Shown: positions 11,161 through 34,947 of the stretch, piece by piece
How the letters are laid out: the number at the start of each line of letters is the position of its first letter
Position numbering within the stretch: position 1 is the stretch's first letter
Assembly: GCA_026004975.1 (NCBI GenBank)
Contig: BPKE01000002.1
Location: forward strand, 248,001 to 312,000
Source of the DNA: Gammaproteobacteria bacterium
GTDB lineage: Bacteria; Pseudomonadota; Gammaproteobacteria; HTCC5015
Length of the DNA: 64,000 nucleotides
Direction: 5' to 3'
Position numbers and translations under genes: made by a program
The notes under the pieces: model-generated
Database searches by the model: none
What the model saw: only the letters and a program-made list of their open reading frames with translations
What the model was told of the DNA's origin: nothing

Positions 11161-11574
11161 TCACATCGGGAACCGGTCGGCGTACTTCTCGATCCATTCG
11201 CGGGCGGCCTCCTCGCCGCTGAGACGGCGCCGCTCGTGCTTGAGGATTTCCCGCCGGTAATGCTCGATGTAGCAGATCTGTTCGACCAGGCGCAGGGTGT
11301 AGCGGGCGTGCTCGTCGAGGAAACGCACGCCGGTCTCGTAGGGCGGCTGACTGCGACTCCAGACGACCACCGCCTCGGCGCGGAACGGCGGCCGGGCGAC
11401 GGGGATCTCGACCTCGATGCGCTGGCCGGGCAACAGCGGCCGATCGGCGACGAAGCACAGACCGCCGCGACTGACGTTCTTCAGCACGCGGTCGCCCGAG
11501 ACGCCGTCCTGGACCCGGTAGCGGATCGGCAGGTCGGACGGGTGGCGGATGTAGGCGCGGGCCGTTTCGCTCAT
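11161..11574 (-). CDS. PilZ domain protein
   Basis: The 137-residue protein is a single PilZ domain with a helical tail. PilZ domains bind cyclic-di-GMP. The N-terminal Arg motif appears as YIRHPSDLPIRYRV and the second motif as NVSRGGLCFV, where Asn replaces the usual Asp of DxSxxG. The body has VEIPVARPPFRAEAVVVW and ETGVRFLDE. The C-terminal about 45 residues (IEHYRREILKHERRRLSGEE) form charged helices. A CAGGAGG site precedes the ATG. The altered Asp may weaken ligand binding. Confidence 0.85.
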   Translation of the reverse strand: MSETARAYIRHPSDLPIRYRVQDGVSGDRVLKNVSRGGLCFVADRPLLPGQRIEVEIPVARPPFRAEAVVVWSRSQPPYETGVRFLDEHARYTLRLVEQICYIEHYRREILKHERRRLSGEEAAREWIEKYADRFPM

Positions 11575-11659
11575 GGTCCCTCCTGGTCGGCGACCCCGGC
11601 GGCACTCCGGCCGCCGGTCTTGGACTATAGCACATCCGTGCACACCCGTAGGTGCGCGC

Positions 11660-18597: not shown

Positions 18598-19860
18598 TCA
18601 GCCCTGGCCGGCTTCCAGCGTTTCCTGCAGCATCGGCCGCTCCAGGCGCGAGCTCGGCTCGGCGATCAGATAACCCTGGATGAAATCGACGCCGAGCTCG
18701 TAGAGCACCGGCAACACCTCGGCGTTCTCCACCTGGCTGGCGACCACTTTCAAACCGTTGGCGCGCGCCTTCTCGACGATCCGTTTGACGCCTTCCTTGA
18801 CGCGCGGATCGCGCGCCAGCGGCTGGACGACGCTGCGCGCGAGCTTGATGTAATCGAGGGAGATGTGCTTGAGATAATTGAGCTGGTTGTCGCTCGGCTC
18901 GTAATGGTCGAGGGCGAACTCGAGCTGCAGCTTCTTGACGTGCTGGTTGAGCGCCTTGACCTTCTGCAAGCGGGCGAGCACGGTCTTCTTGTCCACCTCG
19001 ACGACGAAGCTGCCGGGCGGCAGCTTGGCCTGGACCATTTCGGTGACGATCTCGTTGAGGATCGCCGCCTCGACCAGCGAGTGCCCCGACAGGTTCACGA
19101 AGAACGTCAACCGGCGCGACTCGCCGCGCAGCTTGCGCACCTCACACTCGGCCTTGAAGCGCTTGACGGCGTTGCGCACCACCCAACGGTCGATGGCGGG
19201 CATCAAGCCGTACTGTTCGGCGGCCGGCAGGAACGCCCACGGCTCGCCGTACCGGTCGCCGCGGCGGATGCGCAGGAACAGTTCGTAGCGGTCCACGCCG
19301 TCGTCTTCGACGGCCAGGATCGGCTGGAACAACAACTCGAACTGGTTGTTGCGCAAGGCCTCGTCGATGAGCTTGACTTCGGCGGCCAGGTCCGGGCGCT
19401 CGGCGCGCGTCTCGAAGGCCGATTCGTCGACGATCTGGCTGGCCTTGATGCGCTCGATGGCCGCCTCGAGACTGCGCCGCAGACGGACCGAGGCGAGCTC
19501 ACGGCGCACGACGAAGGCGAACTGGGCCGGCAGGCCGGCGTGGATCACGTCACTGGCCTGCCAGTTCGCCGCCTGCACGTAGTCGCGCGCGCCGGGCTGG
19601 TCGGCGACCAGCACCAGGACCGCCGGCGGATCGCGATCGGCCAGGGCCTCGACCACGACCTGCGGTTCGGGCACGCCGCGCTGGTGCCAGTACAGCACCA
19701 GGTCCACCGGCTGGGCCAACGCCGCGGTGAGCGCGGCGGCGTCGCTCACCGCCTCCCAGCGGATCTGCCCGCCGAGCTCGTCGAGCAGCCGGCCGAAGCG
19801 CCCGCAGTCGGCGGGCTTGTCGATCACCAGCAGCACCCGGGACGGCGTCTCGCCGGCCAC
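18598..19860 (-). CDS. Degenerate receiver-EAL protein downstream of the MSHA operon
   Basis: The 420-residue protein has a receiver-like N-terminus (residues 1-125) that lacks the phospho-acceptor Asp (DLVLYWHQR) and an EAL-like domain (155-415). The catalytic motif is ELF at 193-195, the DDFG motif is DHYE (318-321) and the Glu of AEGVE is Ser375, so two metal ligands are lost. VNLS, YLKHISLDYIK and QGYL remain. Enzyme activity is unlikely; c-di-GMP or protein binding is possible, as in FimX or LapD. The GTG at 19860 follows the mshP stop by 2 bases, placing it in the pilus operon. Confidence 0.8.
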   Translation of the reverse strand: MAGETPSRVLLVIDKPADCGRFGRLLDELGGQIRWEAVSDAAALTAALAQPVDLVLYWHQRGVPEPQVVVEALADRDPPAVLVLVADQPGARDYVQAANWQASDVIHAGLPAQFAFVVRRELASVRLRRSLEAAIERIKASQIVDESAFETRAERPDLAAEVKLIDEALRNNQFELLFQPILAVEDDGVDRYELFLRIRRGDRYGEPWAFLPAAEQYGLMPAIDRWVVRNAVKRFKAECEVRKLRGESRRLTFFVNLSGHSLVEAAILNEIVTEMVQAKLPPGSFVVEVDKKTVLARLQKVKALNQHVKKLQLEFALDHYEPSDNQLNYLKHISLDYIKLARSVVQPLARDPRVKEGVKRIVEKARANGLKVVASQVENAEVLPVLYELGVDFIQGYLIAEPSSRLERPMLQETLEAGQG

Positions 19861-23625: not shown

Positions 23626-24849
23626 TCAACGCCCGACCAGCTCGGTGACGTTCCACATCGGCAGGAAAATGCCGAGCATGAGCAGCAGCACGACGCCGGC
23701 CAGGGCCACGGTGAGCAGCGGCTCGATGGCGGCGTTGAGGTTCTCGACGTCGTAATCGACCTCGCGCTCGTAGAAGCCGGCCACCTCGCCGAGCATCTCC
23801 TCGATGCGGCCGCTCTCTTCGCCCACGGCGATCATCTGCAACACGACCGGAGTGAACACGCCCTGCCGGGCGGCGGCGCGCAGCAGGCTTTCACCGCGCT
23901 CGATGTGCTCGCGCATGTCCTGGACTTTGCCGCCGAGAAAGACGTTGCCGAGCGCCTGGGCGGTGACGTGCACCGCCTGCAGCACCGGCACGCCGGCGCC
24001 CAGGGCCATGGCCAGGGTGCGGCAGAAGCGGGCCAGGGTGGCGCGCAAGGCGATGTCGCCGACGATGGGCAGGCGCAGCTTGTGCTCGTCCCACCACAAC
24101 CGCCCTTGGGCGGTCTGCAGCCACTGCCGCCAGCCCAGGGCCGCGACGGCGGCGGCGCCGAGGATCAACCACCAGTAGGCGGCGCAGAAGCCGGCCACCG
24201 CCATGATGATGCGGGTCGGCAGCGGCAGGGTCAGGTGGTTGGCCTGGTAGAAGGCGGCGAACTTGGGGATGACGAAGGTCATCAGGATGAACACGGCGAT
24301 GACGATCGCCGCCAGCACGAAGGCCGGATAACGGAACGCCGCCTTGATCTGCTTGCGCGTCTCGCGGTCGCGGCGCAGGTACTGGTAGAGGTGGGCGAAG
24401 GCCTCGTCCAGACGGCCGGAGGTTTCGCCCACCCGGACCATGTTGACGTACAAGGGACTGAACACGTCCGGGTGCCGGGCCAGGGCGACCGACAGTTCCA
24501 GACCGCTTTCCAGGTCGTCGCTGATCGCCTCGATGACGCGTGCGAAGACCGGGTCGCGCGAAGAATCGGCGAGCAGCCGCAAGCCGCGGATGATCGGCAC
24601 ACCGGCGCGCAGCAGGGCGTGGCACTGGCGGCTGAACAGGATCAGGGTGTCCGGGTGCGGCCTGTCGCGGCCGAACCAGGCGCGCACGCCGCCCCAGGGC
24701 CGATCTTCGGCGGCCTGCTCGTCGAGGGCGAGCGGAATCAGCCCGCCGTCGAGCAACTGGCCGGCGGCGGCGTCCAGGTCGGCGGCCTCGATCACGCCCT
24801 CGACGGGCGCGCCGTCGGCGCGGCGGGCGCGGTAGCGATAGCGCGGCAT
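23626..24849 (-). CDS. mshG: MSHA platform protein MshG (GspF/PilC family)
   Basis: The 407-residue inner-membrane platform protein has two GspF repeats. The first has LFSRQCHALLRAGVPIIRGL and GETSGRLDEAFAHLYQYL, the second has ARFCRTLAMALGAGVPVLQAV and GEESGRIEEMLGEVAGFYE, with membrane helices after each. It contacts the ATPase MshE. The ATG at 24849 overlaps the mshE stop (ATGA). Confidence 0.93.
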   Translation of the reverse strand: MPRYRYRARRADGAPVEGVIEAADLDAAAGQLLDGGLIPLALDEQAAEDRPWGGVRAWFGRDRPHPDTLILFSRQCHALLRAGVPIIRGLRLLADSSRDPVFARVIEAISDDLESGLELSVALARHPDVFSPLYVNMVRVGETSGRLDEAFAHLYQYLRRDRETRKQIKAAFRYPAFVLAAIVIAVFILMTFVIPKFAAFYQANHLTLPLPTRIIMAVAGFCAAYWWLILGAAAVAALGWRQWLQTAQGRLWWDEHKLRLPIVGDIALRATLARFCRTLAMALGAGVPVLQAVHVTAQALGNVFLGGKVQDMREHIERGESLLRAAARQGVFTPVVLQMIAVGEESGRIEEMLGEVAGFYEREVDYDVENLNAAIEPLLTVALAGVVLLLMLGIFLPMWNVTELVGR

Positions 24850-26573
24850 CACTCGTCCTCGACGCGCTGGGCGCTGATGCGCATGATTTCCTCGATCGTC
24901 GTGATCCCGGCGCGCACCCAGCCCAGGCCCTGGTGGTGCATCGGCTTGAAGCGGGTGTTGGCGCGCGCCGCGGCGGCGAAGGCCAGGGCGTCGCCGGCGC
25001 GCAAGGCGTCGATCATCGCTTCGTCCGGCTCGAGCAGTTCGTAGACGCCGATGCGGCCGCGGTAGCCGGTGTGGTTGCAGCGCGCGCAACCGGCCCCGCG
25101 GCGCTGTTCGATGTCGCGGGCGTCGACGCCGCAGACCGCCAGCGCCCAGGCGCGTTCGCGTTCACTGGCTTGGACCGGGCGCGCGCAACTCTCGCACACC
25201 CGCCGCACCAGGCGCTGCGCGACCACCGCCCGCAGGCTGGCGGCGATCAGAAAACCCTCGGCGCCCATGTCGAGCAGCCGGTCGGCGGTGTGCACGGCGT
25301 CGTTGGTGTGCAGGGTGGAGAGCACCAGGTGGCCGGTCATGGCCGCGCGCAGGCCGATTTCGACGGTTTCCCGGTCGCGCATTTCGCCCACGAGGATGAT
25401 GTCCGGGTCCTGGCGCAAGGCGGCGCGCAGGATCTCGACGAAACCCAGGCCGATCTTGGGTTTGACCTGCACCTGGTTGATGCGCGGCAGGCGGTATTCC
25501 ACCGGGTCCTCGGCGGTGATGATCTTCTTGTCCGGTTCGTTGAGCTCCTGCAGGGCGGCGTAAAGGGTGGTGGTCTTGCCGCTGCCGGTCGGCCCGGTGA
25601 CCAGAATCAGCCCGTGCGGCGCGCGGATGATGCGGCGGAACGCCGCCAGCACGTCCGGCGGCATGCCCAGCCCGTCCAGGTCGAGCAGCCCGCCGGACTG
25701 GTCGAGCAGGCGCATCACCACCGATTCGCCGTGCTCGACGGGCATCGTCGACAGGCGCACGTCGATCTGCCGGCCGCGCACGCGGATGTTGAAACGGCCG
25801 TCCTGCGGCAGGCGCTTCTCGGCGATGTCCAGGCCGGCGGTGATCTTCAAGCGGAGCACCAGCGCCGGGGCGATCTGCTTCTCTTTCATCACCTGCTCGT
25901 GGAGCACACCGTCGACGCGCTGGCGGATGCGCAGCACGTCCTCGTCGGGCTCGATGTGGATGTCCGAGGCGCGCATCGCCACGGCGTCCTCGAAAATCGA
26001 TTTGAGCAACCGCGCCACCGGCACGTCTTCGTCGGTGGTCACCTGCAGCAACTCGGCCAGGTCGTCGCCGGCCTCGCTGAGCGCCTGGCCGAGGGCCTCG
26101 GCCAGGTCCTGGATTTCGTCGGTGCGGCGGTAGACGCGGTCGAAGACCTCCAGCAGGTCCCCCTCGCGCACCACCGCCGGTTTCACCGGCCGGTTCAGCC
26201 GGCGGGCGAGATCGTCCAGGGCGAACAGATCGGTCGGGTCGGCCATGCCCACCAGGTAGCCCTCAGGGGTATCCTCGATGAGCACGGCGCGGTGCCGGCG
26301 GGCGACCGTTTCCGGCAGCCGCCGCACCAGTTCCGGGTCGAGTTCACGCTGGCGCAGATCCACCAGCGGCAGCTTGAGCTGCTCGGCGAGAATGCGCAGC
26401 AACCGGTCCTCGTCGATGTAACCGAGCGCGACCAGGGTCTGGCCGAGCTTGCGGCCGAGGCGGCGCTGCTGGGCCAGGGCCTGCTGCAACTGTTCGGCGC
26501 TGATCGCGCCTTGCGCGACGAGCAGGTCGCCGAGGCGGATGCGCCGCGGCGCGGCGGGGGTGGTGTCGCTCAC
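24849..26573 (-). CDS. mshE: MSHA extension ATPase MshE with c-di-GMP-binding MshEN domain
   Basis: The 574-residue GspE/PilB-family ATPase drives MSHA extension. Two tandem MshEN motifs open the protein: RLGDLLVAQGAISAEQLQQ and KLGQTLVALGYIDEDRLLR. This domain is established as a c-di-GMP receptor in Vibrio MshE. The ATPase has Walker A GPTGSGKTTTLYAALQ, Asp box ITAEDPVEY, Walker B DPDIILVGEMRDRET, His box LSTLHTNDA, and a zinc tetracysteine CESC...CARC. The GTG at 26573 overlaps the end of mshN. No PilT-like retraction ATPase is present. Confidence 0.95.
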   Translation of the reverse strand: MSDTTPAAPRRIRLGDLLVAQGAISAEQLQQALAQQRRLGRKLGQTLVALGYIDEDRLLRILAEQLKLPLVDLRQRELDPELVRRLPETVARRHRAVLIEDTPEGYLVGMADPTDLFALDDLARRLNRPVKPAVVREGDLLEVFDRVYRRTDEIQDLAEALGQALSEAGDDLAELLQVTTDEDVPVARLLKSIFEDAVAMRASDIHIEPDEDVLRIRQRVDGVLHEQVMKEKQIAPALVLRLKITAGLDIAEKRLPQDGRFNIRVRGRQIDVRLSTMPVEHGESVVMRLLDQSGGLLDLDGLGMPPDVLAAFRRIIRAPHGLILVTGPTGSGKTTTLYAALQELNEPDKKIITAEDPVEYRLPRINQVQVKPKIGLGFVEILRAALRQDPDIILVGEMRDRETVEIGLRAAMTGHLVLSTLHTNDAVHTADRLLDMGAEGFLIAASLRAVVAQRLVRRVCESCARPVQASERERAWALAVCGVDARDIEQRRGAGCARCNHTGYRGRIGVYELLEPDEAMIDALRAGDALAFAAAARANTRFKPMHHQGLGWVRAGITTIEEIMRISAQRVEDE

Positions 26574-27708
26574 GGGGTGTCCTCCAGGCTGCGCAGCCGG
26601 CCGGCGGCCCAGGTCCGCAGCTCGGCGGTCAGATCTTGGCACGCCAGGCCCTTGCGATAGGCTTCGGCGGCGGCCCGGCGACGCTGCAGCTGCTCCAGCG
26701 ACCAGCCCAGCGCCAACCACCAGGCGCCGCGCGCCGGCTCGGCTTCGACGGCCAACAATTGATGGCGCACCGCCTCGGGCCATTCGCCGAGGCGCTGCAA
26801 CACCGCGGCGTAATACGCGTGCAGGGCCGGGTCGGCCGACGCCATGACGCGCTCGAGCACGCGGCGCGCGGCGGCCGCGTCGCCGCGGTCGAGCTGCCAC
26901 TGGGCGAGCAGCCGGGCATAGGGCAGATGATCCGGCGCCAGGGCCAGGCCCTCGTCGACCAGCCGTTCGGCCTCGGCGATCCGGCCGCGGCGCAGGGCCA
27001 CCGCGATCAGGGCCTCGCGGGCGGCATGAAAATCCGGCTTGGCGGCCAGCGCCGCGGCCAGGTCCGCCGCGGCCGCCTGCTCGCGGCCGGCGGCCAGCGC
27101 CGCCTGGGCGCGGCGGTACAAGGTCTCGGGGCGCGGACGCGCCACCGCCGGCCGATCCTGGGCCGGAGCCGACGGGCGCACATCGTCCGCGGCGGTCTCC
27201 ACAGCGCGTGGCCCGGACGTGCCGGAGACCTCGACCGAGGACTCGCGGGCGGCGGCCGCCCGTCGGGCTTCACCGCCCGCTGCCTGCGCGGCTTCGGGGG
27301 CGGCGTCCGGAGCGACGCCGGCATCCCCGGCCGTGGCGGCGGGCTTCGCGGCGGACGACGGCGCGGGGCCGTGGATCCCACCGCAGCGCCTTTCCGGACT
27401 TCCCCTGCGGCCGCCTGCGGCGCGCCGACCGCGCCCGCCGGACCTGCGTCGGGCGACGGGACGGAGGCAACGACGGCAGCCGATACCGGGCGCGGTGCTG
27501 CGGACGGTCTGCCGCCCTGGGAGGCCGGCAGACCGAGCCGCCACCAGTAAACCAGCCAGCCGAGCACGACGGCGCAGACGAGCAACCATGCCCAAGGGCC
27601 GGCCCGGCCGTCGCCGCCAGGCTCGACCGCCCGCCAGGCCGCCGCCGGCCGCCCGCCCGGGGTCTGGCGGCGCTGCAGGTCGCGCAGCATCTGGTTGATC
27701 ACGCTCAC
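26570..27708 (-). CDS. mshN: MSHA biogenesis protein MshN, frame broken as sequenced
   Basis: The N-terminus MSVINQMLRDLQRRQ and a single membrane helix (WLLVCAVVLGWLVYWW) are in one frame. The TPR part, from about GPAPSSAAKPAATAGD through ALAAKPDFHAAREALIAVALR to LRSLEDTP, is in another frame. The switch lies near 27365-27400 and corresponds to one missing base (or two extra). Joined, it makes an MshN of normal layout. The GTG at 27708 overlaps the mshM stop. MshN is a periplasmic TPR protein of the pilus complex. A sequencing error is more likely than a real mutation because the rest of the operon is intact. Confidence 0.8.
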
Positions 27709-28616: not shown

Positions 28617-30263
28617 TCAGGGCAAGCGCTCACCGATGCGACGCAGCGCCTCGCGCCACGGGGCGTCGTCGTCGGCCGGCACGACCGTCGGCTTGAGCAG
28701 GATGACCAGCTCGCTGCGGCGGTTGTTGCGCTGGGTCTGCTTGAACAAGCTGCCGAGCAGCGGAATGCGGCTCAGTCCCGGCAGACCGCCTCGAACGTCG
28801 CGACTCTGGTTCTGCATCAGCCCGCCGATGACGATCACCTGGCCGCTGCGCGCGCGGACGATGGCGTCGGCCTCGCGCACCGTGCTGAAGGCCAGCGGCA
28901 ACGATTGCGCCTCGCCGCCGACCGTCAGCTCCTTGACCTGGTCGGTGACCTCGCTGATCGAAGGATGGATGTGCAACACCACCTCGCCCCGCTCGTTGAT
29001 CTGCGGGGTGACGTCCAGGGCGATGCCGGAGAAGAACGGCGTGAGCACGATCTGCGGCGTGGTGGTGGTCGTGGTGCCGGTGGTGGTGGTGCTGGCGACC
29101 TCGGTGACGAAAAACTCGTCCGAGCCGACCTTGATCACCGCTTTCTGGTTGTTCACCGTGGACACCCGCGGACTCGACAACACCTTCACGTCGCCCTGGC
29201 GGTTGAGCAGCCGCAGGATGTAGGCGAAATCGTCGGTCACCGTGCCCAGCGCGAACAGGTTGCCGAAACCGCGCTGCAAGTCGGTGCCGGTCAGCCCCGA
29301 GACGGTGAAGCGCCCATCCGGACCGACCAGCTCCGAGCGCCCGTCGAACAGTTGCAGTTGCGCGCCGAAATCGCCCTCGCGGGCCGCCTCCTGGTTGAGC
29401 TTGGCCCAGTTGATGCCCGCCTGGAACTCGTCGTCCAGGCTCACCTCGATGACCTTGGCCTCGATGATCACCTGGCGGTTGAGGCTGGCCTCGGCGCGCT
29501 CGAGGAAGGCTTCCACGTCACGCAGCTCGCCGGGCATGGCGCGCACCACCACCAGTCCCGCCTGCGGGCTGACCACCACGCTGCGGCCCTCGCCCGGCCC
29601 GATGAGGGTTTCGACGGTGGTCTTCAGGTCCGCCCAGAAGTCCGCTTGCGCCTTGGTGACGATCTGGCTGGAGGCCAGCGCCTTGCGCTGGCCGCCGCGC
29701 GGATAGGTTTCGCCGGCCTGGCGCCCGGTTTCGGTGTCGGCGAGCTGCCCGGAGGTGACGCGCACGTTCGATTCGCCGCCGCGCGCGACGTTGAGATAAG
29801 AGACGTCGAAGATCCGCGACTGCAGGCGGGCCGGCAACACGTAGTAACCGGCGGCGGTCTTCTGGTACTCGTAACCGTAGACGTCGCGGGTGATGTTCAA
29901 GACGTCCTCGATGGTGACGTTCTTCAGGTCCAGGCTGATGCGCCCGGTGACCTCCGGGTGCACCACCAGGTTCACGGGCGTGTCGCGCACCAGGCTCATG
30001 AAGAAGGTGCGGGCGTCCATGCGGTGCACGTTGACGTCGAAGCGCTCCTCGGCCGCGGCCGGCGCCGCCGACGGCCGGTAGTCGGGCAGCAACGCCTTTT
30101 CCAGGGCCGGCGGCGGCGCGGCGGGTGCGGCCTCGGGGGCCTGGACGGCCTGCTGCAGCTCGTCCTGGATGCGCGCGAGGGTGTCGTCGTGGCGCGCCGG
30201 GCGCGGGCCGGCGCAGGCCGCCAACAACAGCGGCAAAGCCAAGACGGCGATCGTTTTCTTCAT
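28617..30263 (-). CDS. mshL: MSHA outer-membrane secretin MshL
   Basis: The 548-residue secretin is a lipoprotein (LLLAACAG). N-domains with [18 protein letters not shown] and [21 protein letters not shown] precede the secretin core with [46 protein letters not shown] and [14 protein letters not shown] Thr-rich loop (TTTTGTTTTTT) lies in the gate region. It forms the outer-membrane channel for the pilus. The ATG is preceded by an AAGGAG. Confidence 0.93.
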
Positions 30264-31266: not shown

Positions 31267-31892
31267 CGACGACCCGCCCCCGGCCGCCCGGCCGCGACCG
31301 GCTCGCCCAGCGTGGCGAGCACGAAGTCCAAGGGCCCTTCGGCCGCCTCGCTGTCCATGCTGACCCGACGGAAGCGCCGGCCGTCATAGGCCGGCTCCTC
31401 GCCCAGGCCGTTCAGCCAGCGCACCAACAGCGCCGGGTCGTGGGTGCGGCCGGCGAGCAGCAGTGCGGCACCGCCGTCCTCGATCCACAACTGGGTCAAC
31501 CACAGCCCCCGCACCGGCCGGCGCGCCGGCCCGGCGAGCAACTCCGAGAACGGCGCCGCCGCCGGCGCACCGGCGGCGGCCACCCAGTCCAGCACCCGTT
31601 TGCGTGCCGCCAGCGCCCGCTCGGTGTCGGCCAAGGCCCGCTCCAGGGCCGGGTCGGGGCGGCGGTTCTCGACCCGCGGGCGCAAGGCATCCACCTCGGC
31701 CTGCAGCCGGTCACGGGCGGCCTGCGCGACCGCCGCCGCGGCCTCGGCGCGCCCGGCGCGCCAGCCTTGCAGCCCGGCCAGGAGGGCAAACAGCACCGCG
31801 GCGGCGAGCAGGGCCGGGAACACCCGCCGCGCCGGCCAGGACACCCGCCGCGGCCGGAACCGCGGATCGTACAGATCGACCACCTGCTTCAT
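31263..31892 (-). CDS. mshI2: MSHA biogenesis protein MshI2 (PilN-like)
   Basis: The 209-residue protein starts KQVVDLYDPRFRPRR, close to the conserved PilN/MshI2 opening, then one membrane helix and a periplasmic domain with LWLTQLWIEDGGAALLLAGRTHDPALLVRWLNGL. It overlaps both mshI (4 bases) and mshJ. Confidence 0.82.
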   Translation of the reverse strand: MKQVVDLYDPRFRPRRVSWPARRVFPALLAAAVLFALLAGLQGWRAGRAEAAAAVAQAARDRLQAEVDALRPRVENRRPDPALERALADTERALAARKRVLDWVAAAGAPAAAPFSELLAGPARRPVRGLWLTQLWIEDGGAALLLAGRTHDPALLVRWLNGLGEEPAYDGRRFRRVSMDSEAAEGPLDFVLATLGEPVAAGRPGAGRR

Positions 31893-32803
31893 CGTCGCCC
31901 CGCCTCTCGGCGCGCGCGCAGCGCCGCGCCCACCGCATACAATCCGCGGCCGTCGGCCGCTTCTTCCACGTCGACGCGAACCTCGGGCAGGCGCTCGGGC
32001 AGCAACGGTTCGACGGCAAGGCTCAGTTGCGCGTTCAGGTACATCAAGGCTTCGCCGCTCAGCCGGTCCCCGGGATACACCAGCAAGCGCGCCGGCAGCG
32101 GCTGCAGGACGTGACGCTCGTAGTAGTCCAGGGAACGCTGCACTTCCAACACCACCCGGTCCCAGGTCGCCTCGTCGCCGTCGGCCAGCGCCGCCCAGCC
32201 CAGTTCCAGGCGGCGGGCGAGATAGAACCATTCCCCACGGTAGACGCCGAGCAGGCCGTCCTCGCCGTGCAGGGCGAGCACCGCCACCCCTTGCGCCTCG
32301 GCGTCGAACACCGCCGCCACCTCGCGCAAGGCGAGCTCGGCGATGTCGATGGCGACGAGGTCCAAGCCCGCATCGCGCACGGCCCGCACCAGACGGCCGA
32401 CGTCGCCGGCGCGCGCCACCACCGCCCACAGCGCCCGTTCGCCGCCGCGCTGCGCCGCCTCGGGCAACTCGAACGCGTCCACCACCGCCTCGTCCAGCGG
32501 AAAATCGATCAGCTCGCGGACCTTGAAGCGCGCCGCTTCGCGCAGCTCCTCGGCCGGCAGCGGCGGCAGGTGCAAGGGAAAGAGCTGATAGCGCTCCGGC
32601 GGCATCACCAGCACCGCGGCGGCGCCCTCCAGCTTCTCGCGCTCGGCCAGGTCGGCGAGGGCCCGCTCGGCGCCGCCGCCGGCCGCGCGCAGGCGCAGCC
32701 GCCCGTCGGCGCCCCAGGCCGCGACCAAGACTTCGTCGCCTTCGATCTCGATGCCGACGCCCGGCCGGCGACGGCCGAACGCGGCGCCCAAACCCCCGAA
32801 CAT
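31889..32803 (-). CDS. mshI: MSHA biogenesis protein MshI (PilM-like)
   Basis: The 304-residue cytoplasmic protein resembles PilM/MshI actin-like ATPases: GVGIEIEGDEVLVAAWG, VMPPERYQLFPLHLPPLPAEELREAARFKVRELIDFPLDEAVVDAF and LDYYERHVLQPLPARLLV. The ATG at 32803 has GAAGAGGG upstream and gives the usual MF start; ATGs at 32839 and 32872 are less likely. It is the first gene of the pilus operon, 90 bases after the GGDEF gene. Confidence 0.85.
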   Translation of the reverse strand: MFGGLGAAFGRRRPGVGIEIEGDEVLVAAWGADGRLRLRAAGGGAERALADLAEREKLEGAAAVLVMPPERYQLFPLHLPPLPAEELREAARFKVRELIDFPLDEAVVDAFELPEAAQRGGERALWAVVARAGDVGRLVRAVRDAGLDLVAIDIAELALREVAAVFDAEAQGVAVLALHGEDGLLGVYRGEWFYLARRLELGWAALADGDEATWDRVVLEVQRSLDYYERHVLQPLPARLLVYPGDRLSGEALMYLNAQLSLAVEPLLPERLPEVRVDVEEAADGRGLYAVGAALRARREAGRR

Positions 32804-32893
32804 GTGTGCCCTCTTCCCGGCCTCGACGCCCCGACTCATCGGCCGCGCGAGGCGATTCTTGAAACGGTCCAAGTCGAAACCGCGCGACCCGGT

Positions 32894-33628
32894 TCAAAAT
32901 GCCGTCGAATCCCCGACCGCGTCGCACACGACGATGCAACCGCCGCCGCGCCGTTTGGCTTCGGCCACCGCGTCGGTGGCGGCGGCGAGCAAGGCGTCCA
33001 GCGACACGCCTTCACCTTCGGCCGTCTTCACACCGATCGAGGCGGAAAACCGGATCTCCTCACCGCCGTATGCGACGACCGTCTCTTCGAGCGCATCGAG
33101 CAGGCGGCTGGCGAACGCCACCAGGTCGATCTTGTCCGATTCGGGCAGCAAGCACATGAACTCGGCGCCGCCCATGCGCGCGACGATGTCCATCGCCCGC
33201 AGCTCGTTCAGGCAGGTGTTGGCGACCGCCTGCAGGACGGCGTCGCCGGCGCGTTGGCCGTGCCGCTCGTTGATGTGCTTGAGCCCATCGACGGTGACCG
33301 CCACCAGCGCGAAGGGCGTGCCGTAACGCTGCGCCTTGGCCAACTCGCGCTCGGCCTGCTCGAGGAAGAACCTGCGGTTGTAGACATCCGTCAGGTCGTC
33401 GACGATGGACAAGGCACGCAGCTTCTCGGCCGCGCGGTCCTGGCGTCGCGCGCGCAGCAACAGCGCCGCCACGATGCCGGCCCCGAGCAGCGCGGCGAGC
33501 CCCGCCGCCAGCATCGGCGACGCGCCCGCCGCGGCGTACACCGCGGCGGCCAGGACGAGCGCCGTGAGCGGCACCGGCCAGAACCAGGCCCAGGCGCGGA
33601 TGCGCAAACCGTCAGGCAAGCCGCTCAT
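32894..33628 (-). CDS. Degenerate GGDEF protein with intact inhibitory site
   Basis: The 244-residue protein has two membrane helices and a GGDEF domain. The signature is GGAEF (153-157), so the metal-binding third residue is Ala. The first Asp of DxD is Thr112 and the ND pair is NE (120-121), so diguanylate cyclase activity is not expected. The inhibitory site RAMD (144-147) is intact and spaced normally, which suggests c-di-GMP binding. It lies directly upstream of the MSHA operon, where MshH (itself a degenerate GGDEF-EAL protein) sits in Vibrio. It overlaps the end of yihY. Confidence 0.88.
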   Translation of the reverse strand: MSGLPDGLRIRAWAWFWPVPLTALVLAAAVYAAAGASPMLAAGLAALLGAGIVAALLLRARRQDRAAEKLRALSIVDDLTDVYNRRFFLEQAERELAKAQRYGTPFALVAVTVDGLKHINERHGQRAGDAVLQAVANTCLNELRAMDIVARMGGAEFMCLLPESDKIDLVAFASRLLDALEETVVAYGGEEIRFSASIGVKTAEGEGVSLDALLAAATDAVAEAKRRGGGCIVVCDAVGDSTAF

Positions 33629-34947
33629 CGTCGCCTCGGATCCCCTTCGAAGTGTCCATGGCCGCGGCCGCGTCTTCCCCTTGCGCCAGATCGCGCAAGC
33701 TTAACCGAGACAGGCATTCGTGCAAACACTGATCGTAGCGTGCGCGCAATGCGCGCACGACCGCCGCTTCCGGCGCGCGCGCCGCGTGCACGGCGCGGTA
33801 CAACTCGAGGGCGTCGTGCCGCTCGGGCGGTGACAGCGGCAGGAACACGCCCGGGGCCTCCACCCGCTCGTCCAGCCAACCCGTCCGGCTCAACAGGGCC
33901 AGCGCGTCCTCGACCTGCTGTTCATCCAGGTCCAGCTCCAGGGCCAGCACGGTGGCGGCCGCGCCGCCGCGGTCGGCGTACCAGGCGCGGGCGACGGCGG
34001 CGTACACCGCCAGCGCCGTCCATTCGTCCACCCAGACCGGCGCGGCGACCTGCGGCGGCCGCCGCAAGCGCCGCGGGTGTTGCACGAAGTAGGCGAACTG
34101 CGCGCCGATCAACAGGATCAACCAGTTGAGGTAGATCCACAGCATGCCGAGGATGAGCACGGCGAAGCCCGAATAGATGGCCGTGTAACGCCCCGCCTGG
34201 CCGACGAAGGTGGTGAACACCCAACCCGCACTCTGCCAGAGCAGGCCCGCGGCCAGACCGCCCGCCAGCGCGGCGCGCCAGCGCACCGCCGTGTTCGGCA
34301 AAAACACGTAGAGGAACGTGAACGCGGCGATCACCAGCAGGTAGGGCAGCAGGAACAGCAGGGTGCGGTAGAGGGCGCCGATCGGCGCCAGCGCCAACAG
34401 CCCCTCCGCCCCGGCGCCGCGCAAGCAGCGTCGCGCTCAGCCCCACGGCCGTGAACAGCAACACCGGGCCGACGAACAGCACGCTCAGATAATCGGCCAT
34501 GCGCCGCAGCAAGGCGCGGCGGCGGCGCAGACGCCAGATGTCGTTGAACGCCGCTTCGATCTTCTGCAGCAAGGACAGGACGCCGTAGAACAGCAACAAC
34601 ACCCCGGCCGAGCCCAGCACGCCGACGCGCACGTTGTCGACGAAGGCGATGATGCGCCCGACCAGCGCTTCGCGCGCCTCGCCCAGCGGCGCCAGCCACT
34701 GCAGCAGCAACGGCCGCACCATGTCGTGCGCGCCCAGGCCCTTGAGCACCGAGAAGCTCACCGCGAGCAGCGGCACGATGGCCAGCAAGGTGGTGAAGGC
34801 CAGCCCGGCGGCGCGCAGCCCCAGGCCGCCGTGGCCGATTTCATGGCCCAGATGCACGGCGAGGCGCAAGGCCCCGAGCAGGCGCGGCCGGCGGCGCAGC
34901 GCCGGCGGCGGGCGTTCCCACAAGCCCTCGGTCAGCCCCACGCGCAT
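33612..34947 (-). CDS. yihY: YihY/BrkB family inner-membrane protein, frame broken as sequenced
   Basis: The N-terminal half (LGLRAAGLAFTTLLAIVPLLAV, FYGVLSLLQKIEAAFNDIWRL, LLFTAVGLSATLLA) and the C-terminal half (YRTLLFLLPYLLVIAAFTFLYVFLPNT, QAGRYTAIYSGFAVLILGMLWIYLNWLILLIGAQFAY) are in different frames. The switch lies near 34405-34425. Together they form a six-helix YihY/BrkB protein. A cytoplasmic C-terminal extension of about 140 residues looks like a winged-helix domain. The ATG at 34947 overlaps the DUF815 stop. Function is unknown; the old RNase BN label does not apply. Confidence 0.82.

Follow-up and report, generated by a model that had tools for sequence, protein, structure and literature searches.

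The question raised by this locus is what a membrane protein whose GGDEF domain has lost its catalytic residues and kept its inhibitory site is doing directly upstream of the genes for an MSHA pilus. The gene lies in a window of 64,000 nucleotides, which is the whole stretch of DNA analyzed and the one to which positions refer unless another locus is named. The explanation that we favor, though only as an even bet, is that its product (P0001) is an inner-membrane pseudo-diguanylate cyclase serving as a c-di-GMP receptor of the type represented by YdaK, PelD, and CdgA.

Catalytic losses and retained residues in P0001

The open reading frame, strand, and extent given in a first-pass annotation of this DNA were right, and the two membrane helices that it described are present in both the hydropathy profile and an AlphaFold model. 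Base composition by codon position is coding-like (GC 0.71/0.49/0.90), and GGDEF is the sole Pfam domain (residues 75-229, 1.7e-33, 116 bits). The model has a mean pLDDT of 90.7 and contains helices at residues 18-33 and 38-75, the second of which extends past the membrane as a stalk up to residue 75 and runs unbroken from the membrane into the GGDEF domain. The structures closest to the model come from GGDEF proteins, among them SiaD and PleD, and some have c-di-GMP bound; by Pfam, model, and PDB matches, the GGDEF fold is complete with high confidence. A reading of the gene as decaying or as a pseudogene is disfavored by the intact reading frame, the coding-like base composition, and the high-confidence fold.

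P0001 was aligned to 35 related domains, of which almost all belong to the same class, and the residues singled out in the first-pass annotation (Thr112, the NE pair at 120-121, RAMD at 144-147, and GGAEF at 153-157) were all exact. Across the 35 domains, Asp is almost invariant at position 112, as is Asp or Glu at position 155. P0001 deviates at near-invariant positions 112, 121, 125, 155, 218, and 222, most of which surround the active site, and is without the C-terminal Tyr and the usual Gly-Arg-Asn. Retained in the same alignment are Arg144, Asp147, Asn120, and Asp129, and Lys117 is kept as well. Thr112 occupies the position of D327 in PleD, and Arg175 corresponds in its spacing to R390 in the secondary inhibitory site of PleD. 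The RxxD motif stands five residues before GGAEF, the arrangement of receptor-type proteins; in place of the metal-binding Asp and GG(D/E)EF of a diguanylate cyclase, P0001 has Thr112 and GGAEF (Table 1). With neither metal ligand in place and the C-terminal phosphate Arg and Tyr absent, P0001 is very probably not an active cyclase.

Table 1. Positions in the window of the P0001 gene, its diagnostic residues, and the neighboring genes discussed in the text
Feature	Position	Strand	Basis
Gene for P0001, membrane protein with catalytically degenerate GGDEF domain	32894..33628	-	Open reading frame, 244 aa
Two membrane helices of P0001 (residues 18-33 and 38 to ~59)	33452..33577	-	Hydropathy, AlphaFold model
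Thr112, replacing the first metal-binding Asp	33293..33295	-	Alignment
Asn120-Glu121 (guanine-contact Asn kept, Asp replaced by Glu)	33266..33271	-	Alignment
RAMD (144-147), primary inhibitory site, putatively c-di-GMP-binding	33188..33199	-	Alignment
GGAEF (153-157), Ala155 replacing the second metal ligand	33158..33172	-	Alignment
Arg175, equivalent of the secondary inhibitory-site Arg	33104..33106	-	Spacing
mshI-like (PilM-like) gene, first core MSHA operon gene	31889..32839	-	Domain/profile matches
mshL secretin gene	28617..30263	-	NCBIfam TIGR02519, 277 bits, cut-off 250.2
mshE ATPase gene	24849..26900	-	NF053729, 71.3 bits, cut-off 38
Last operon gene, receiver-like N-terminus and degenerate FimX-like EAL	18598..19860	-	Sequence and structure matches
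yihY/BrkB-type gene upstream, two overlapping frames (N-part 33922-34830, C-part 33612-34424)	33612..34830	-	Pfam

Position beside the MSHA operon

The operon is assigned to MSHA because mshL exceeds the curated cut-off of its family, and its gene order is mshI, two small assembly genes, mshK, mshL, mshM, mshN, mshE, mshG, and pilins. The first-pass annotation placed the P0001 gene at the head of this operon, which is right to the extent that the gene lies directly 5' of mshI in the same direction, with a gap of 21-54 nt depending on the start. Its other side is less clear-cut. The yihY-type gene, which has the same orientation, has a 17-nt overlap at its 3' end with the P0001 gene, and the surrounding DNA yielded no promoter-like site, so the operon may start further upstream. 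The two frames of the yihY-type gene point to a frameshift or an assembly indel. No RNA family was found near the P0001 gene.

The first-pass annotation had also proposed a check against homologues upstream of other msh operons, and this went against it. Among 45 sampled msh heads with a recognizable mshI, only the one in this window has a GGDEF neighbor in the same direction, and a GGDEF gene adjoining mshI is absent from the 44 others of the class, including that of a genome from the same family (G001); the genus contributes one genome to the comparison set. With about 13 GGDEF genes in a genome whose size suggests some 1,600 genes in all, a single such neighbor in 45 loci is within chance. 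The proposal of a membrane sensor that reports to the pilus thus divides into two parts. The sensor part is backed by the dead cyclase, the two intact inhibitory sites, and the sister protein described below, whereas the link to the MSHA pilus is a weak one that rests on unconserved adjacency in one genome, and we regard action of P0001 on the pilus as doubtful, if conceivable. As a separate observation, GGDEF or GGDEF-EAL genes occur near msh operons on the opposite strand in a few other genomes (L101 and L135, 12.3-13.5 kb; L120, 9357-12860).

A sister protein and the weight of the RxxD motif

A further premise of the first-pass annotation, that a lost GGDEF motif with a kept RxxD marks a receptor, did not survive a count. 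In a pooled sample that is biased toward domains resembling P0001, 7 of the 10 dead domains carry RxxD, compared with 38 of the 45 live ones (Fisher p = 0.37); dead domains retain the motif no more often than live ones, and RxxD alone is uninformative as a receptor marker. Within the host genome it occurs in five of seven non-canonical GGDEF domains. Three such domains (L012, L013, and L014), with ETDRL, SESDRF, and EGTAL in place of the signature, keep RxxD, and one of the three is fused to a receiver domain. More broadly, RxxD occurs in about 53% of all GGDEF domains, and the signature motif is degenerate in about 24% (PMC3974145). In Vibrio cholerae, a screen for binding scored 3 of 11 RxxD proteins, and CdgG, which the annotation had offered as an example of a receptor, was negative there, in a screen whose authors warn of false negatives (PMC4624772).

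More telling than the motif itself is a sister protein, L188, which a class-wide search recovered from a genome of another family of the same class (G122). L188 has the same layout of two transmembrane helices and a GGDEF domain, has lost catalytic residues at the same positions (Ala in place of the first Asp, GGAEL, and NE), and retains RPID and the secondary Arg. The two GGDEF domains are identical at 60 of 153 residues (39%). Their catalytic positions have diverged (T/A at 112, F/L at 157, and A/R at 222), whereas Arg144, Asp147, and Arg175 are the same in both; Lys117 is Gln in L188. Both metal ligands are kept in about 30 other nearest relatives checked. P0001 and L188 group as sisters with a UFBoot of 97 and an SH-like value of 0.974, which is 0.74 with the active-site columns masked. 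Since an earlier, smaller masked tree left the two proteins ungrouped, catalysis may have been lost independently in each. The pattern suits a binding site that was selected after catalysis was lost, as far as two sequences can suggest this: the inhibitory site is kept without catalysis in L188, the sole sister found (n = 2). A phylum-level profile search with both dead members found no third member of the lineage, a scan of the genome collection with P0001 gave three distant matches and nothing else, and an order-level search with P0001 returned paralogues only. The pair provides a simple test for selection on the inhibitory site after loss of catalysis. In G122 the L188 gene is located away from msh and adjoins a gene for a Sel1-repeat protein; it directly follows this large gene in the same direction (L195, 5932-10180, plus strand), and the Sel1-repeat protein is a possible partner.

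A candidate receptor, its rivals, and other candidate c-di-GMP binders

Known systems provide several points of comparison for P0001. The nearest working model is YdaK from Bacillus subtilis, which is likewise a membrane-bound degenerate GGDEF protein with RxxD; its gene lies within the operon whose product YdaK activates, and the R and D of its inhibitory site are required (PMC5422440). YdaK differs in having four transmembrane helices, an SDERI motif, an exopolysaccharide synthase as its target, and a Gram-positive host. PelD from Pseudomonas aeruginosa is also membrane-integrated and degenerate and binds c-di-GMP through RxxD (PMC10333796), but it acts on the Pel polysaccharide, has more transmembrane helices, and carries a GAF domain before its GGDEF domain; Pfam and the model show the transmembrane hairpin of P0001 joined directly to GGDEF. 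CdgA from Bdellovibrio is an inactive protein with the motif GVNEF, an RxxD five residues upstream, and a Kd for c-di-GMP of about 2 uM (PMC3271064). It differs from P0001 in its degenerate motif and in its association with the prey-interacting cell pole, and the available part of its report gives no msh context.

If P0001 works as a receptor, it would be unable to make c-di-GMP, with the metal ligands, phosphate Arg, and Tyr gone, and it probably binds the nucleotide, judging from the residues it keeps. An intercalated c-di-GMP dimer would sit on the RAMD of one subunit and Arg175 of its neighbor and would lock the GGDEF dimers as in feedback-inhibited cyclases. The model suggests that a locked dimer could twist or hold the 38-75 helix that leads into membrane helix 2. 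More speculatively, the tethered domain might then act on a partner, most plausibly the MSHA base (MshI, MshG, or MshE), and so place a second layer atop the control that c-di-GMP already exerts on MshE. The pattern of kept and lost residues, the complete fold, the sister L188, the presence of MshE and an EAL protein in the operon, and the YdaK and CdgA precedents all argue for a receptor. The commonness of RxxD in live domains, the unconserved adjacency, the location of the sister gene away from msh, and a lineage of two members weaken the case.

Alternatives concern both what the domain does and where it acts. A dead GGDEF domain could be a protein-protein module, either a scaffold or a partner that forms a heterodimer with an active cyclase and so silences or tethers it, in which case c-di-GMP is not sensed and RxxD is an inherited remnant. 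Most dead domains of the host genome do keep RxxD whatever their type, and the degenerate GGDEF domain of CdpA is used without a need for c-di-GMP (PMC3974145); the retention of Arg144, Asp147, and Arg175 in L188 at 39% identity, where catalytic positions differ, leads us to consider such a module unlikely, though worth serious attention. The guanine-contact residues Asn120 and Asp129, along with Lys117, would also suit a degenerate site for GTP whose signal passes through the membrane helices, and there are known cases in which a degenerate GGDEF domain activates an EAL partner by binding GTP (PMC10333796). A GTP sensor is nonetheless very improbable here given the loss of both metal ligands and the Gln at position 117 of L188. 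Even less credence is due to residual c-di-GMP synthesis despite GGAEF: the AGDEF and SGDEF proteins that remain active (PMC3974145) are altered in the first motif residue only, whereas P0001 has lost both metal ligands and is also changed at other conserved active-site residues.

The remaining alternatives dispute the connection to the pilus or the identity of the protein. P0001 could be a receptor or scaffold that has nothing to do with the pilus and is a passenger beside msh, its gene being part of the yihY transcription unit; this is compatible with c-di-GMP reception and disputes the pilus step only. The 17-nt overlap with yihY on the same strand, the 44 other msh heads that have no such neighbor, and the location of the sister gene elsewhere make this a real possibility, if one that falls somewhat short of even; the gap to mshI of just 21-54 nt, the shared direction, and two further candidate c-di-GMP binders in the same operon speak against it. 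Finally, P0001 might replace MshH/CsrD and act on RNA decay. A degenerate GGDEF-EAL protein of this type (PMC10333796) heads the msh operons of Vibrio and Shewanella (for Shewanella, PMC7439477), so the place beside mshI and the degeneracy are shared, and no CsrD equivalog exceeds the cut-off in the host genome, which at 63.9% completeness is weak evidence. MshH/CsrD, however, combines GGDEF and EAL with a HAMP domain and acts on CsrB/C RNA decay, and the forms from E. coli and Vibrio are classed among proteins that do not bind c-di-GMP (PMC10333796). P0001 has no EAL domain and scores 33 bits against a CsrD cut-off of 663; we reject this identity and see hardly any prospect for the functional replacement.

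A c-di-GMP receptor at this locus would have company. MshE contains both 24-residue c-di-GMP-binding motifs described for this ATPase (PMC5013675), the second of which starts with KLG rather than RLG. The last operon gene begins about two bases past the preceding stop and encodes 415 aa, with a receiver-like N-terminus modeled at low confidence and an EAL domain whose motifs are altered (YELFLR, DHYEPSDN in loop 6, and KLAR for KID). Its best sequence and fold matches are the EAL domains of FimX and RbdA (PA0861), and like a FimX-type degenerate EAL it keeps E-x-x-x-R while its catalytic motifs are changed. A search of 369 genomes of the class gave no orthologue above 39% identity. In FimX, the EAL domain is the part that binds c-di-GMP, and the protein promotes the assembly of pili by way of the motor ATPase (PMC5595344). 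FimX is a degenerate c-di-GMP receptor for type IV pili, as the proteins of the present system may be, but it is a single REC-PAS-GGDEF-EAL chain, whereas here the head GGDEF and the tail REC-like/EAL parts are encoded by separate genes, and the tail protein has the receiver-like part and EAL only. P0001, MshE, and the tail protein are therefore three candidate c-di-GMP binders at one locus, and the tail protein makes a dedicated c-di-GMP input to the MSHA pilus more plausible than the P0001 gene alone would. That the three form a built-in set, in which head and tail pseudoenzymes read different c-di-GMP levels and act on the same motor as a split counterpart of FimX for MSHA, is an improbable extension.

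Were the receptor reading to hold, a pilus-associated case would join the few membrane-bound dead GGDEF receptors that are encoded within operons, which are known so far mainly from exopolysaccharide systems, and MSHA pili, for which direct binding of c-di-GMP to MshE is the presumed means of control, could have extra dedicated receptors. The host genome is a two-contig assembly of 63.9% estimated completeness in which at least two genes look frame-shifted (the yihY-type gene and a FimX-like gene), which suggests residual indels, and absences from it are weak evidence for these reasons. The FimX-like gene belongs to a separate locus on contig C1 (L155, 5429-7784, plus strand) that encodes REC-PAS-degenerate GGDEF followed by a degenerate EAL with YEVF; a frame change divides this locus, another hint of indel errors in the assembly. 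About 7 kb past the end of the msh operon, the window also encodes a PilZ-domain protein (11161-11643, minus strand) that is a possible further c-di-GMP receptor.
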